A stretch of 64,000 nt of DNA, from assembly GCF_008064665.1 (NCBI RefSeq), contig NZ_VRZA01000001.1:186001-250000 (forward strand). The letters run 5' to 3'. The translations under genes and the position numbers were made by a program. The notes under the pieces were generated by a model that saw nothing but the letters and a program-made list of their open reading frames with translations, made no database searches and had not been told where the DNA came from. The number at the start of each line of letters is the position of its first letter. Position 1 is the first letter of the stretch. This DNA is from Parahaliea maris. Its GTDB lineage: Bacteria > Pseudomonadota > Gammaproteobacteria > Pseudomonadales > Halieaceae. Positions 9,443-18,592 of this stretch are shown here, one piece after another.

Positions 9443-9485
9443 TTGCCATGGCGGCAACGATACCGTACTATGCCACCGGTAGCAA
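9443..9485. promoter_or_regulatory. Divergent uxaA/uxaC promoters with LacI-type operator O1
   Basis: The operator TGCCACCGGTAGCA is at 9471-9484. For uxaC (plus), TTGCCA 9443-9448 and TACTAT 9466-9471 are 17 bases apart and the operator starts on the last base of the -10. For uxaA (minus), TTGCTA (complement of 9480-9485) and TATCGT (complement of 9457-9462) are also 17 bases apart and the operator covers the -35. One repressor bound here could block both promoters. Confidence 0.8.
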
Positions 9486-9524: not shown

Positions 9525-10940
9525 ATGTCACATACTCTAACAATGCATCCCGACCGCCTCTTTCCCGCCGATGCGGGCACCCGCGCCGTGGCCCGGGCGC
9601 TTTACCAGAACGTGAAGGACCTCCCCATTATCAGCCCCCACGGCCACACCGACCCGGCCTGGTTCGCCACCAATGAGCCCTTTGCCAACGCCGCCGAGCT
9701 GTTCATCACGCCAGACCATTATGTGTTCCGCATGCTCTACAGCCAGGGCGTCAGCATGGAGTCCCTGGGCGTACCCACCGTCGACGGCGCCGAGGTCGAA
9801 ACCGACGGCCGCAAGATCTGGCAGCGCTTTGCCGATCACTACCACCTGCTGCGTGGCACCCCATCGCGGATGTGGCTCGACAGCGTATTCTCCGAAGTAT
9901 TCGGCTTCCAGCAGCGCCTCGACAGCGGCACCGCCGACGCCTATTACGACCGCATTAACGAAAAACTGGCCACCGACGCATTTCGCCCCCGGGCGCTGTT
10001 CGACCGTTTCAACATCGAACTACTGGCCACCACCGAGGGCCCCCTGGACGACCTGGCTCATCACCGAACCATCCGGGATAGCGGCTGGGGAGGACGGGTC
10101 ATTACCACCTACCGCCCCGATGCGGTGACCGACCCGGACTACGAGGGCTTCACCGACAATCTCGCCCAGTTCGCCGAGCTCACCGGCGAGGACACCAGTA
10201 CCTGGACGGGTTACCTCAACGCCCACCGCGCACGCCGCGCCTTCTTCAAGTCGATGGGCGCCACCGCCACCGACCACGGCCACCCCAGTGCCACAACCGC
10301 AAACCTCAGCCGCAGCGAAGCAGAAGCCCTCTACGACACTGTACGCAGCGGCCGCCACAGCGCCGGGGAAGCGGAACTGTTCCGCGGCCAGATGCTCACC
10401 GAGATGGCAGGTATGAGCCTTGAAGACGACCTGGTGATGCAGATTCACCCGGGCAGCTTCCGCAACCACAATGAGTTCGTGTTCCAGCGCTTCGGCCGCG
10501 ACAAGGGCGCCGACATCCCCTCCCCCACGGGTTATGTACGGGCATTGAAGCCCCTGCTGGACAAGTACGGCAGGGAACCGGCACTGGAGATCATCCTGTT
10601 CACCCTGGACGAAACCAGCTACAGCCGGGAACTGGCACCCCTGGCCGGCCACTACCCCTGCCTGCGCCTGGGCCCGCCCTGGTGGTTCCACGACAGCCCG
10701 GAAGGCATGCGCCGTTTCCGCCAGCAGGCAACGGAAACCGCGGGCTTCTACAATACCGCAGGCTTCAACGACGACACCCGGGCCTTCCTGTCCATCCCGG
10801 CCCGCCACGATGTGGCCCGGCGCATGGACTGCGCCTTCCTGGCGGAACTGGTGGCAGATCATCGGCTGCAGGAAGAGGAAGCTGCGGAGTTGGCGGTAGA
10901 TCTGGCGTATAACCTGGCCAAACAATCGTATCGGCTTTAG
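9525..10940 (+). CDS. uxaC: Uronate (glucuronate/galacturonate) isomerase
   Basis: A 471-residue UxaC, the usual length. The metal-binding start LPIISPHGHTDPAWF (HxH), NIELLATTEGPLDDL, YRPDAVTDPD, MQIHPGSFRNHNEF, LRLGPPWWFHDSPEGMRRFR and the closing GFNDDTRAFLSIPARHDVARR are all family hallmarks. It isomerises D-galacturonate to D-tagaturonate (and D-glucuronate to D-fructuronate) in the cytosol. A second in-frame ATG at 9543 (MHPDRLF) is an alternative start; neither has a strong ribosome binding site. The gene is transcribed alone from the operator-bearing promoter. Confidence 0.95.
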   Translation: MSHTLTMHPDRLFPADAGTRAVARALYQNVKDLPIISPHGHTDPAWFATNEPFANAAELFITPDHYVFRMLYSQGVSMESLGVPTVDGAEVETDGRKIWQRFADHYHLLRGTPSRMWLDSVFSEVFGFQQRLDSGTADAYYDRINEKLATDAFRPRALFDRFNIELLATTEGPLDDLAHHRTIRDSGWGGRVITTYRPDAVTDPDYEGFTDNLAQFAELTGEDTSTWTGYLNAHRARRAFFKSMGATATDHGHPSATTANLSRSEAEALYDTVRSGRHSAGEAELFRGQMLTEMAGMSLEDDLVMQIHPGSFRNHNEFVFQRFGRDKGADIPSPTGYVRALKPLLDKYGREPALEIILFTLDETSYSRELAPLAGHYPCLRLGPPWWFHDSPEGMRRFRQQATETAGFYNTAGFNDDTRAFLSIPARHDVARRMDCAFLAELVADHRLQEEEAAELAVDLAYNLAKQSYRL

Positions 10941-11012
10941 AAACAATTTTTAAAATTTACCGTGAAGGCGTTTCAGACCCCCTTGGCGAGCACTCCGTAG
11001 GACGGGCGCGAT

Positions 11013-11106
11013 CTGGGGAGCGTTTTCCGGGACACGCCGTGAATACATCCATGTAGGCTCCTCAGCGGCATCCATGCCGCTGAAGGTCCCGGAAAACGCT
11101 CCCCAG
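11013..11106 (+). repeat. Nested palindromic repeat, copy B (long cruciform)
   Basis: The core 11025-11094 matches copy A at 679-748 in reverse orientation. Here the outer arms extend to 21 perfectly complementary bases (11013-11033 with 11086-11106), and nearly 24 with one mismatch. Inside sits a second perfect hairpin, TCAGCGGCA..TGCCGCTGA (11062-11083). The whole forms a long double hairpin, as RNA or DNA. Confidence 0.85.
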
Positions 11107-11108
11107 CT

Positions 11109-11455
11109 CACACCCTGCGACAGAGCGTGGTTCGGATTTACAGATACGAAGTCACCATCCTGAATACCCTCGAAGGGAGCGCGCGCAGCGCCCGGTACCC
11201 TTCCGGGACTCTATGAGGCATGGATGCCGAGTCAGCGACCGTCCAGGCCGCTGAAGGTCCCGGAAGACACCCCCAGTTCACACCCTGCTCTGGAGCGTTG
11301 TTCTGGTTTAGGGATGCGAAGTCACCATCCTGAATACCCTCAATGGGAGCGTGTGCGGCGCCCGGAGTCCTTCTGGGACTCTATGAGGCATGGAGGTCGG
11401 GGGCGGCCATCCGCAGTAGAAGCGTACATGGACGTATTTACAGCGTGTCCCGGAA
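11109..11455. repeat. Tandem duplication of about 170 bp with degenerate palindrome copies C and D
   Basis: The block starting at 11109 (CACACCCTGC) recurs at 11279 with a period of 170 bases. The best-conserved stretch is GAAGTCACCATCCTGAATAC in both units. Each unit ends in a degenerate repeat copy: 11201-11265 (TTCCGGGAC to GTCCCGGAA) and 11371-11455 (TTCTGGGAC to GTCCCGGAA). Sequence drift between units suggests the duplication is not recent. Confidence 0.8.
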
Positions 11456-11524
11456 GGACTCCGGGTGCTGCGCGCGCGGGTTTAGAACTCCCAAGATCCC
11501 GAGCGACCAGGTAGAAAGTGGAAT

Positions 11525-14613: not shown

Positions 14614-17031
14614 CTAACCCAGCAGGCGAGCGATTTCAATGCTGGCGAAAACGAACGGACCGAGACCCTTCGGGTCGTCGGGGATAACCTTCTCGCTCAT
14701 GTAATAACGGTAGCTGCCGTCGCGACCAAAGCCGAGGCCGGCCACCTGGCAGATTTGGGTCAGGCTGGCGCTGCCATCCGGGTGCGGCTCAACGAATTCC
14801 CGCACCAGTCCCTCGTAGGACTTGATCGCAGCGTCACGGTAGGAAGTTGGCAGGATGCCCCTGTTTACTCCCTTGGCGAGCATGTAGGTAAACATGCTGC
14901 TACCGGAGGCCTCGAGATAGTTCCCGGTCGCATCGGGCATATCCAGTATCTGGTACCAGGTGCCGCTCTCGTCCTGTACTTCAAGCAAAGCGTCCGCCAA
15001 CTGCCGTGTCATGTCGATCAGCAGCTGGCGTCGCGCGGTATCCTCCGGGGGTATATAGTCCAGGGTATCCACCAGCGCCATGGCCAGCCAGCCGAGGCCA
15101 CGACCCCAGAAATACGCCGAGCGGCCCGTCTCCTTGTCGGCCCAAACCTGCTGCTTTTTTTCATCCCAGGCATGCCAGTACAGGCCGGTCTCCGGGTCGC
15201 GCAACTGGTCACGACTGATCTCGAACTCCCTGACCACCTCGTCGATGCTGTGCCCCTCTTCAAACAACTGGCTGTAGTGCGCCAGGAAAGGCATGCCCAT
15301 ATAGACTCCGTCGAGCCACAACTGGTACGGGTAACGCTGCTTGTGCCAGAACGCTCCGGCGCTCACCCGGGGGTGCTCTTCCAGTTGTTCCCGCAAACGG
15401 GTGGCCGCCGCGCGATAGCGCGGCTCCCCGGTTCGCTCATACAAACGCAGCAGCATTTTGCCGCTGTTGATACTGTCGATGTTGTAACTGGATTTGTCGT
15501 AACTGTGGATGCTGCCATCCTCCGCCACGAAGGAAGCGATCACCCCCTCCGCCATGGTGCTGTAGGCACGCTGGTCCAGGGCCAGGCCGAGGGCGTCATA
15601 GGCCTGCATCAGCAGGCCGGTGGTGTACTCCCAGTTTGCGGGGCGCGCACGCAGGTCATCCCAGCCACCGTGGGCCAGCTGCCGGCCGTGGCGGGCGATT
15701 TCGGAATCCACCAGCACCTGGGCCCAGCCCAGGGCCGCGTTCGCAGTGATCGGGAACTGCTTCTCCCCAGCGCCATAAGCGCTCGACACCTGTACTCGTG
15801 GAGTGATAGTCAGGCGTTCCGCCTCCCGATCCAGGTAATCGACAAAGGCCTTCTCGCTGGTAATACCACCCGGCTCACCGTCCCATGCAGCCAGAAAATA
15901 GTACTCCAGACGGGTGCCGCGGGGTTCCAGAACGGCAACGTGGTTTGCCTCGTCCTCCGCCAGTTCCCTGAGATCATTGCGATGAAACAGCACCGCCATG
16001 CCCAGCTCACCGCCGTCCAGGCTCTGCTTGCCCCAGGTACCCAGGTAGGAGAACGCCTCTCCGGTGATATCCAGGTCGCCCTTCACGGTGACGGTGCCCG
16101 GGTGCTTCACCACTCCGGTGACCAGGTTGTCCAATGGCTCGGAGCTTTCCAGAGCCACCTTCACCAACCGGCTTCCTGCCTGCATGGTCAGGGTACTGCG
16201 CAGTTGCACCGTCTTGCCGGCCACTTTCCAGTCCTTGTAGTGGATGGTAAAGGACGATTGCAGGTTACCGTTCTCCTTGATGCTCGCGGTCCAGCCGGAT
16301 ACATCGGACACCCGCTGCACCGCGTCATCCTGCCAGTAGCCGTAGCCCCCCATACCGAGGGAGGCACCGACCTTGAGCACGTCCAGCCCCCACTCCGAAG
16401 GCTCGTGGTAGGAATCAAAGCCATCCAGCCCCACACGCTGCAGCACCGGTTCCGGCACCTTCTTGCCGAAGATATCGAAACCGTTGCGCTCATCGAGATA
16501 GACCCGGTAGCCGACCTTGTCGGATTCGATACCGGGCCCTTCATAGCGGATGTACCAGGAGTGGTCGGTATGCTCGGGGGGCGGCGTCAGCTCCTGTACA
16601 TTCACGAAGTCGCCGCCGATATATTCACGCCCCTGCCAGTGCCCGCCTTCCTTGCGGGATATTTCTGCCTGGGTGCGCTTGGCGTAGCGTTGTTTCGCTG
16701 CCAGCTGGGCATCGCTGACCACCCGGATCTGACGCCGCTCCGCGCCTTTCAGGTCCAGCAACACCAGCAGGCTATCAACCTTTTTGTCACCATCGGTATC
16801 CAGCGTCTGGCTCGGCAATACCTGCTCACCCGCCAGCGCCACCAGCGAGCTGGCCGCCGTGCTCTCCTTCACGCCAAGGGAGGCAAAGCTGAGGGACAGG
16901 GGCTCATCATTGCGCTGGAAATTCGAGGGGTTGGCTACCTCAACAGTCGCCAGCGGCACCGTTGCAGCAGTGGACATGAGGGGTAGCAGCGCCAGCATCA
17001 ACCCCGCGGAAGTGTGTCGTTTTATTTTCAC
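14614..17031 (-). CDS. Exported DUF4861 - GH105 (unsaturated uronyl hydrolase) fusion
   Basis: An 805-residue two-domain protein. A signal peptide (SAGLMLALLPLMSTAATV) precedes a DUF4861-type domain to about residue 430 (VEVANPSNFQRNDEPLSL, YEGPGIESDKVGYRVYLDER, WGLDVLKVGASLGMGG). The C-terminal part is a GH105/GH88 (alpha/alpha)6 barrel: WEYTTGLLMQAYDAL, SINSGKMLLRLYERTG, LWLDGVYMGMPFLAHY with the catalytic-region Asp, YFWGRGLGWLAMAL and GSSMFTYMLAKG. GH105 enzymes remove unsaturated galacturonyl residues from pectin fragments. The start is GTG with GGAG 8 bases upstream. It heads the operon with kduI, kduD and uxaB. The two domains are more often separate proteins; the DUF4861 part may help bind or process the substrate. 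Confidence 0.88.
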   Translation of the reverse strand: MKIKRHTSAGLMLALLPLMSTAATVPLATVEVANPSNFQRNDEPLSLSFASLGVKESTAASSLVALAGEQVLPSQTLDTDGDKKVDSLLVLLDLKGAERRQIRVVSDAQLAAKQRYAKRTQAEISRKEGGHWQGREYIGGDFVNVQELTPPPEHTDHSWYIRYEGPGIESDKVGYRVYLDERNGFDIFGKKVPEPVLQRVGLDGFDSYHEPSEWGLDVLKVGASLGMGGYGYWQDDAVQRVSDVSGWTASIKENGNLQSSFTIHYKDWKVAGKTVQLRSTLTMQAGSRLVKVALESSEPLDNLVTGVVKHPGTVTVKGDLDITGEAFSYLGTWGKQSLDGGELGMAVLFHRNDLRELAEDEANHVAVLEPRGTRLEYYFLAAWDGEPGGITSEKAFVDYLDREAERLTITPRVQVSSAYGAGEKQFPITANAALGWAQVLVDSEIARHGRQLAHGGWDDLRARPANWEYTTGLLMQAYDALGLALDQRAYSTMAEGVIASFVAEDGSIHSYDKSSYNIDSINSGKMLLRLYERTGEPRYRAAATRLREQLEEHPRVSAGAFWHKQRYPYQLWLDGVYMGMPFLAHYSQLFEEGHSIDEVVREFEISRDQLRDPETGLYWHAWDEKKQQVWADKETGRSAYFWGRGLGWLAMALVDTLDYIPPEDTARRQLLIDMTRQLADALLEVQDESGTWYQILDMPDATGNYLEASGSSMFTYMLAKGVNRGILPTSYRDAAIKSYEGLVREFVEPHPDGSASLTQICQVAGLGFGRDGSYRYYMSEKVIPDDPKGLGPFVFASIEIARLLG

Positions 17032-17106
17032 CTGGTGCGCTCCAGTTATTGCACGGCTGTTCGGGTGGTGGCGTGTCGCCTTTGTATCGTCTCTTTATCG
17101 CTCTTG

Positions 17107-17150
17107 TGCCACCGGTAGCATAGAGTACAGGCGAAGGAACGAAAATTCAA
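17107..17150 (-). promoter_or_regulatory. Promoter and operator O2 for the DUF4861-GH105/kduI/kduD/uxaB unit
   Basis: On the minus strand TTGAAT (complement of 17145-17150) and TACTCT (complement of 17122-17127) are 17 bases apart. Operator O2, TGCCACCGGTAGCA at 17107-17120, starts 2 bases after the -10 and so covers the expected start of transcription. The GTG start of the first gene is about 75 bases further. Confidence 0.8.
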
Positions 17151-17206
17151 GGGAGACGGGGGATTGAGAGGGCCCAAAGCCGGAATCGAGAAGGTTTTCC
17201 AGGATA

Positions 17207-17239
17207 TAAAAAAACCCACAGCCGCTGTCGACTGTGGGT
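17207..17239 (-). terminator. Intrinsic terminator of the candidate small RNA
   Basis: On the minus strand an 8-bp stem (ACCCACAG / CTGTGGGT at 17214-17221 and 17232-17239) with a 10-base loop is followed by a run of T (A at 17208-17214 on the plus strand). The plus strand has no T run after the stem, so it works for minus-strand transcription. It lies upstream of the promoter at 17122-17150 and would insulate it. Confidence 0.8.
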
Positions 17240-17383
17240 CAAAAAGGGAAGCGGTCCGTTTGCCGGGGGTCCCGCCCAACACTTACCCCCAGACCACGCC
17301 CCTGTTAGCAGTGCGGCTTCCCGCGAAAGCCGCAGATTCAACCGGACCTGCGCAGCAGCGACAACCTACACACTGCCACCGGT
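17207..17383 (-). ncRNA. Candidate small regulatory RNA under uronate repressor control
   Basis: A good promoter with two operators (see 17374-17419) faces a stretch of about 175 bases that ends in an intrinsic terminator and contains no credible reading frame: the longest minus-strand frame from here has no ribosome binding site and runs through the terminator. Two further stem-loops precede the terminator: TGCGGCTT/AAGCCGCA (17312-17319 with 17327-17334, 8 bp, perfect) and GGGGGT/ACCCCC (17265-17270 with 17285-17290). The likely 5' end is near 17383, inside operator O3. It could also be the 3' part of a long lacI transcript, since lacI ends at 17558. Targets are unknown. The call rests on promoter, structure and terminator only. 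Confidence 0.55.
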
Positions 17384-17419
17384 AGCAAGAATATACCCCC
17401 GCAATGCCACCGCTGGCAA
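17374..17419 (-). promoter_or_regulatory. Double-operator promoter (O3 and O4) facing the small RNA candidate
   Basis: On the minus strand TTGCCA (complement of 17414-17419) and TATATT (complement of 17390-17395) are 18 bases apart. Operator O3, TGCCACCGGTAGCA at 17374-17387, lies just after the -10; O4, TGCCACCGCTGGCA at 17405-17418, covers the -35. Their centres are 31 bases apart, close to three helical turns, so two dimers could sit on the same face. Confidence 0.75.
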
Positions 17420-17557
17420 TCATTTCTTCAAACAGGGGCCATTTTTCGACATAAAGGCCATTGATGGGCCCCGGCCCCACAACTTTCGGAACCGTAGTTA
17501 CAGTGAGACATAAAGAAGCAGGGGCACTAACCCCCGGAGAAAAACGCCCGGACAGGG

Positions 17558-18592
17558 CTAACCGCGAACCGGCCCGCTGCTCTGGCGCAAGATCAATTCC
17601 GGCGCGAATTCATGGGTGAGTTCCGACGCTTCATCAGGCCGCCCGGCGATACTGGCCAACAGCTTCTTTACGGCGAGAGCGGCCATACGCTCATTGTGGC
17701 GACGGAAGGTAGTGAGGGGCGGTACGATCTTCGATGCCAGCGGACTGTCGTCGTAACCCGCCACCGAAAGCTGTTGCGGCACCTTGATGCCCAACTGCCA
17801 GGCGGCGTGAATCACCCCTGCCGCCATCTCATCATTACTGGCAAAAATGGCGGTGGGCGGTTCGGGACGGTCCAACAGGCGCATGCCGGCATCGATACCC
17901 GACTCGTAGGTGAAGTCACCCTCCACGATGTTGTCCGGGGGCAAGTCCAGGCCCAAATCCTCCAGCCCCTGTCGGAAACCCTCAAACCGCACCTCCGATG
18001 CCAGGCGATACTTGGGCCCCGTGATCATGGCGATATCACGGTGCCCGAGTTCGGCGAAATGCCGGGCGAGGTCGACCATGACGGCACGATCATCAGAAAT
18101 CACGATACGCTCGGGCCGGTCCACAGGCAGCGCCGCCAGACGCACATAGTGAAAGCCCTCGGCGTCGAGGGCCGCGGCCAGTTTTTCGTTGGCGGACAGC
18201 GGCGGCAGGATCACCACCCCGTCGAGCTTGGAGCGGGTGATGAATTTTTTCACCCCGGACACCAGGTTGCGAGCCAGGTGGTCGCAGGGGTGCACCACCA
18301 GCTCGTAGCCCTCCGCCACGCAGACGCTGAGAATGCCCCGCTGCACAGCGTGGATAAACAGCGCATTGGGATCGTCGTACAGCAAACCGAGCATGTAGGA
18401 GCGGCTGGACGCCAGGCCGCGTGCCTGGGGGCTGGGCACGTATTTGAGTTGTTTTATGACCTTCTGGATCTGCTCCCGGGTCTTCTGGTTCACCTTGGGC
18501 GAATCGTTGAGCACCCGGGAAACGGTGCGCTTGGAAACACCCGCGATACGCGCCACGTCATTGATCGTGGGACTGGTGGATTCTTTACTCAA
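17558..18592 (-). CDS. LacI-family transcriptional regulator of the pectin/uronate locus
   Basis: A 344-residue LacI/GalR regulator. The helix-turn-helix is at about residues 9-30 (TINDVARIAGVSKRTVSRVL) with the hinge at 48-60 (YVPSPQARGLASSRS), then a periplasmic-binding-protein-like sensor domain (LDGVVILPPLS, AMITGPKYRLASEVRFEGF, AIFASNDEMAAGVIHAAW, VAGYDDSPLASKIVPPLTTF). It starts at TTG with AGGAG 9 bases upstream and lies 22 bases after the GH28 gene, as the last gene of the TRAP operon. The palindrome TGCCACCGGTAGCA with central CG is what LacI-type dimers bind, and it precedes the TRAP operon too, so autoregulation is likely. KDG or a related uronate intermediate is a natural inducer, but that is inference. 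Confidence 0.9.
   Translation of the reverse strand: MSKESTSPTINDVARIAGVSKRTVSRVLNDSPKVNQKTREQIQKVIKQLKYVPSPQARGLASSRSYMLGLLYDDPNALFIHAVQRGILSVCVAEGYELVVHPCDHLARNLVSGVKKFITRSKLDGVVILPPLSANEKLAAALDAEGFHYVRLAALPVDRPERIVISDDRAVMVDLARHFAELGHRDIAMITGPKYRLASEVRFEGFRQGLEDLGLDLPPDNIVEGDFTYESGIDAGMRLLDRPEPPTAIFASNDEMAAGVIHAAWQLGIKVPQQLSVAGYDDSPLASKIVPPLTTFRRHNERMAALAVKKLLASIAGRPDEASELTHEFAPELILRQSSGPVRG

Follow-up and report, generated by a model that had tools for sequence, protein, structure and literature searches.

The segment between the lacI gene and the adjoining hydrolase gene in the pectin/uronate locus of Parahaliea maris is very probably a deletion scar, left by the loss of a TonB-dependent receptor (TBDT) gene, rather than a dedicated small-RNA gene. 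In the window, i.e., the whole stretch of 64,000 nucleotides that was analysed, the gene of a LacI-family regulator (lacI, 17558-18592, minus strand, Pfam LacI and Peripla_BP_3) is followed on the same strand by a gene with DUF4861 and GH88/GH105-type hydrolase domains (14614-17031, Pfam). In the relatives that keep this gene order a TBDT gene stands between the two. The 3' part of the window segment is homologous to the end of that receptor unit, the operators and the promoter layout at its other end match those of the unit, and the receptor gene itself is absent.

The family sample comprised 140 genomes, of which four carry the GH105 gene (criterion E <= 1e-50): the own genome (G000), G001, which belongs to the same genus as the source of the window, G050 and G003. 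In all three other carriers a TBDT gene lies between lacI and the GH105 gene, with frames of 898, 899, and 927 amino acids in G001, G050, and G003, respectively. The G001 protein contains the Pfam plug and barrel domains. Upstream of the TBDT gene of G001 and G050 the operators TGCCATCGGTGGCA and TGCCACCGGTAGCA show the 31-bp spacing found in the window, and G003 has two operators ahead of its TBDT gene with a spacing of 32 bp. Among 66 genome-contig loci, which include G001 and G050 again (n = 2), a TBDT gene was found within 1 kb on the 5' side of the GH105 gene and on the same strand in 40, and lacI precedes in the same direction in four of these 40. Searching the own genome for an ortholog of the receptor revealed none, the best match reaching 39%. 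The occurrence of the receptor at the loci of the relatives therefore makes it most likely, as judged from sequence comparison, that its presence is ancestral and that the window is the loser. The preliminary description had proposed a small-RNA gene under the control of the repressor encoded next to it; as a dedicated gene this proposal was rejected, because a TBDT gene occupies the place between an equivalent promoter and the GH105 gene in all three relatives. The counterpart of the segment in G001 and G050 is not a conserved noncoding gene but the 3' UTR of the receptor.

The individual elements that had been described are nevertheless there. A promoter with the -35 box TTGCCA, an 18-bp spacer and the -10 box TATATT is present on the minus strand (17419-17390) with 10 of 12 consensus matches, and it is the only promoter-like site within 16900-17700 (0.3 +/- 0.5 in shuffles). 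Its layout is shared with the region upstream of the TBDT gene in G001 and G050, which suggests that it is the old receptor promoter. Judging from the -10 box, transcription would start at about 17383. The two operators of the uronate family were found at the expected places, 31 bp apart: O3 (TGCTACCGGTGGCA on the minus strand, 17374-17387) lies just past the -10 box and covers the putative start, and O4 (TGCCAGCGGTGGCA on the minus strand, 17405-17418) covers the -35 box. The terminator scan also bore out the 7-T intrinsic terminator (17208-17240, minus strand), which consists of a 12-bp hairpin (17240-17213) followed by seven T; four terminator-like sites occur within 16900-17700, compared with 1.1 +/- 1.2 in shuffles. 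The stretch contains no usable frame, as the RNA strand has no ATG and no long frame. Thus, it does possess its own promoter and terminator without a reading frame, as would a small-RNA gene. The part of the earlier claim that holds is the short noncoding stretch with a repressor-type promoter and its own terminator, whereas the unit as such is very probably the product of a deletion. Folding of the 181-nt strand gave -82.7 kcal/mol (z -2.26), a value equalled by 6 of 200 shuffles and thus modestly beyond chance. A known RNA family was rejected as an explanation, since the Rfam 15 scan of the window returned no match at the gathering score.

Comparison with the receptor gene of G001 assigned the segment piece by piece. 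The last codons of the G001 TBDT gene, its 3' UTR and the T run align to the window with 99 identities in 126 columns (79% over 125 bases). On the minus strand of the window, this similarity begins with the decayed last codons of the receptor (17314-17331), which read G F R G K P instead of G F R W K L as in G001 and G050 (alignment, residues assigned by eye), and continues through the structured 3' UTR of the lost gene and the whole T run (17208-17314). The remnant codons bear changes found in neither relative. By hand count 3 of their 18 bases are changed in the window only, and the 3' UTR has 8 such changes in 104 columns; the difference is not significant (p 0.21). On the other side, the 5' leader stub (17343-17373, minus strand) ends with eight bases (17343-17350) that recur in the G001 leader at almost the same offset. 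Such a match carries little weight, as 83 of 5000 shuffles contained one as long, and the 5' junction is therefore approximate, the deletion junction being placed at about 17332-17342. The two matching points are separated by 2774 bases in G001 and by 11 in the window. The similarity to the receptor end of G050 is weaker (103 columns at 72%; two-locus blast E 2e-6), and G050 was missed when 151 bases of the segment served as query in a plain DNA search; homology to G050 is based on position, on the two-locus blast and on the covariance model built with G050. In G003 the element was not matched by the covariance model, and by eye the 3' ends differ in G003 as well as in 19 more distant loci.

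The 3' UTR is conserved beyond the surrounding sequence. Between the window and G001, 77 of 107 positions are identical, compared with 482 of 868 four-fold sites in four neighbouring genes (p 0.0012). The names uxaC and kdgK used for neighbours are those we take to apply from their translations. The flanking intergenic stretches align poorly, with 46 of 124 and 82 of 146 identities even when gaps are free. Concerning structure, the two stem-loops described earlier are present, but the smaller one, given as a 6-bp stem, lies at the core of a more extensive structure, whose outer stem (17246-17302, minus strand; arms 17302-17290 and 17258-17246) has 12 of 13 positions paired. The same 13 positions form 11 pairs in G001 and 13 in G050. 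The stems are kept in relatives, as the check proposed in the preliminary description demanded, but there the receptor mRNA carries them in its 3' UTR. Six of 30 pairs are changed on both sides, which 1 of 500 shuffles reaches, in a comparison of three sequences only. The corresponding regions of G001 (L014:10246-10352) and G050 (L015:9645-9753) represent a TBDT 3' UTR with a long covarying stem ahead of the terminator that belongs to no known family. Changes specific to one sequence are about equally frequent in the window and in G001 (8 versus 12; p 0.50). The 3' UTR of the window hence lacks the faster decay expected of a long-dead relic, which speaks against a scar; equal decay would fit a deletion of recent date, or a 3' UTR that has kept its importance.

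Sequences of the window, G001, and G050 were used to construct a covariance model (R1). Matches in G001 and G050 were strong and no further strong one occurred among the 140 genomes, of which 20 gave matches with E <= 1, the best outside G000, G001, and G050 scoring 30.8 bits. Over 24 sources, R1 was strong only in the window, in L014 and L015 and in their copies L025 and L026. A wider RNA family was considered and rejected: eight of nine loci (L113-L121) match R1, all eight resembling terminator hairpins with nearby sequence and several of them adjoining lysine/alanine-rich frames, and L119 gave no R1 match. At the DNA level, the segment had matches in 6 of 293 genomes of the order sample, the own genome included; the other five matches were 24 to 32 bases long (E 5e-4 to 0.01, with two candidates scored per genome) and were taken as chance.

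These observations can be combined in the following model. Originally, lacI, TBDT, and DUF4861-GH105 would have followed one another on a single strand, and two LacI-type operators would have controlled the TBDT promoter. Loss of about 2.8 kb would then have removed the receptor gene, beginning in the leader and sparing roughly the last six codons. The promoter with its operators would thereby have come to lie about 70 bases upstream of the former stop region, which is followed by the 3' UTR and the intrinsic terminator. Once the repressor dissociates from O3 and O4, presumably in response to pectin breakdown products, the old receptor promoter would fire, and polymerase would stop about 175 bases further on, in the 7-T run of the terminator inherited from the receptor gene. 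The resulting RNA would comprise the stub of the leader, the few decayed codons and the 3' UTR. A short uronate-induced leftover RNA of about 175 nt is thus probably still made, as a relic. From the sequence we infer the identity of the repressor and of the inducer as well as the lack of a function of this RNA; the protein encoded at 17558-18592 is, by the position of its gene, the presumed reader of the operators.

An alternative is that the conserved 3' UTR was already active as RNA or has gained a role, and that selection keeps the scar under the uronate promoter. The likeness of the 3' UTR to that of G001, the covariation and the undiminished conservation make a 3'-UTR-derived RNA set free by gene loss possible, and promoter, operators, and terminator are all intact. 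However, the comparison comprises three sequences, the alignment of one of these contains off-register pairs, the 3' ends at the 19 other loci look different, R1 found no further strong member in the 140 genomes, and a recent deletion accounts for the same data. We therefore regard a functional stand-alone small RNA as unlikely. We give somewhat less credit to the idea that O3 and O4 are auxiliary operators which loop to the operator upstream of the DUF4861-GH105 gene (17107-17120), an operator that G001 also has before this gene; selection would then act on the DNA rather than on the RNA. There are indeed three sites of the family within about 310 bp, but the function of the operator pair at the TBDT promoter of the relatives already accounts for it.

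That the region is merely the end of the lacI transcript with its terminator is very improbable. The lacI gene lies upstream on the same strand, and a nearer terminator-like site (17536-17519) is weak with seven pairs; lacI read-through may therefore stop at 17208. Yet the segment is homologous to the TBDT unit and has its own promoter with two operators, which makes it more than a lacI 3' tail; a lacI mRNA tail alone is insufficient, even if read-through may still end there. We consider least credible an assembly error by which a receptor gene present in the organism was dropped. The genome is represented by a single assembly of 23 contigs, but the window contains no N, the ortholog is absent from a genome that is 98.8% complete, and a mere omission would not explain remnant codons with changes absent from both relatives.

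The scar can be compared with known systems. Carbohydrate utilisation loci of a comparable kind have been described (PMC1790865). A pectin-locus TBDT unit and the window share the order of LacI-family regulator, operators, promoter, 3' UTR, and terminator as well as GH105 and GH28 neighbours, whereas the window lacks the receptor coding sequence. RNAs derived from 3' UTRs with roles in carbon use have been reviewed, e.g., MalH, as has MicX, which has its own promoter (PMC9438474). Like these RNAs, the segment is structured after the stop codon and ends in an intrinsic terminator, its counterpart in the relatives adjoins a carbon-uptake gene, and the window has a promoter of its own. It differs in that this promoter would have been brought in by deletion of coding sequence, and in that the segment is known from sequence alone.

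The operators also mark other genes. Further sites of the family in the window lie at 9471, 17107, and 23920. The pattern TGCYAVCGSTRGCA, which was chosen after the sites had been seen, occurs at eight places in the 4.85-Mb genome, compared with one for the reversed control, and five of the eight are inside the window. The three places outside are C11:10193, C17:593930, and C22:97296. The first precedes a second pectin cluster (GH28-TBDT-GH88/105, L108; G000:C11:10162-15903), situated at a distance of about 190 kb from the locus in the window, which has an extra site at 10162, 31 bp away, that TGCYAVCGSTRGCA missed. The second (L122) lies where a frame for a GDSL-type esterase begins, and the third (L123) is upstream of an MFS transporter; both genes are likely members of the same regulon. 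Accordingly, the sites track genes that fit pectin/uronate use. As a separate observation, four-fold sites of lacI carry 26 window-only changes versus 12 in G001, and those of GH105 34 versus 36.

The TBDT of the second cluster gives the 39% match to the G001 receptor. As a paralogous receptor is thus encoded in a second pectin cluster, the loss may be buffered, and this protein may cover the function of the lost receptor. The receptor is possibly not the only gene lost from the locus. In G001 (L014:2890-4548) and G050 (L015:2304-4079) a pectate-lyase-like gene (Pfam Pec_lyase), 56% alike between the two, lies next to uxaC, and the window counterpart (10941-11524) is about 0.6 kb long without it. 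A search of the own genome, run without a positive control, gave no match to this gene, which is possibly the second one lost.

A unit that resembles a textbook small-RNA gene was recognised, on comparison with relatives, as very probably the scar of a lost coding gene, which calls for caution in predicting small RNAs from single genomes. At the same time, the operators sketch a pectin regulon of the Parahaliea maris genome. If the RNA were functional, the locus would be a small-RNA gene born by gene loss and caught as a snapshot, with a receptor promoter fused to a conserved 3' UTR. The locus also lends itself, as an experiment of nature, to asking whether a conserved 3' UTR retains a role after the loss of its gene.
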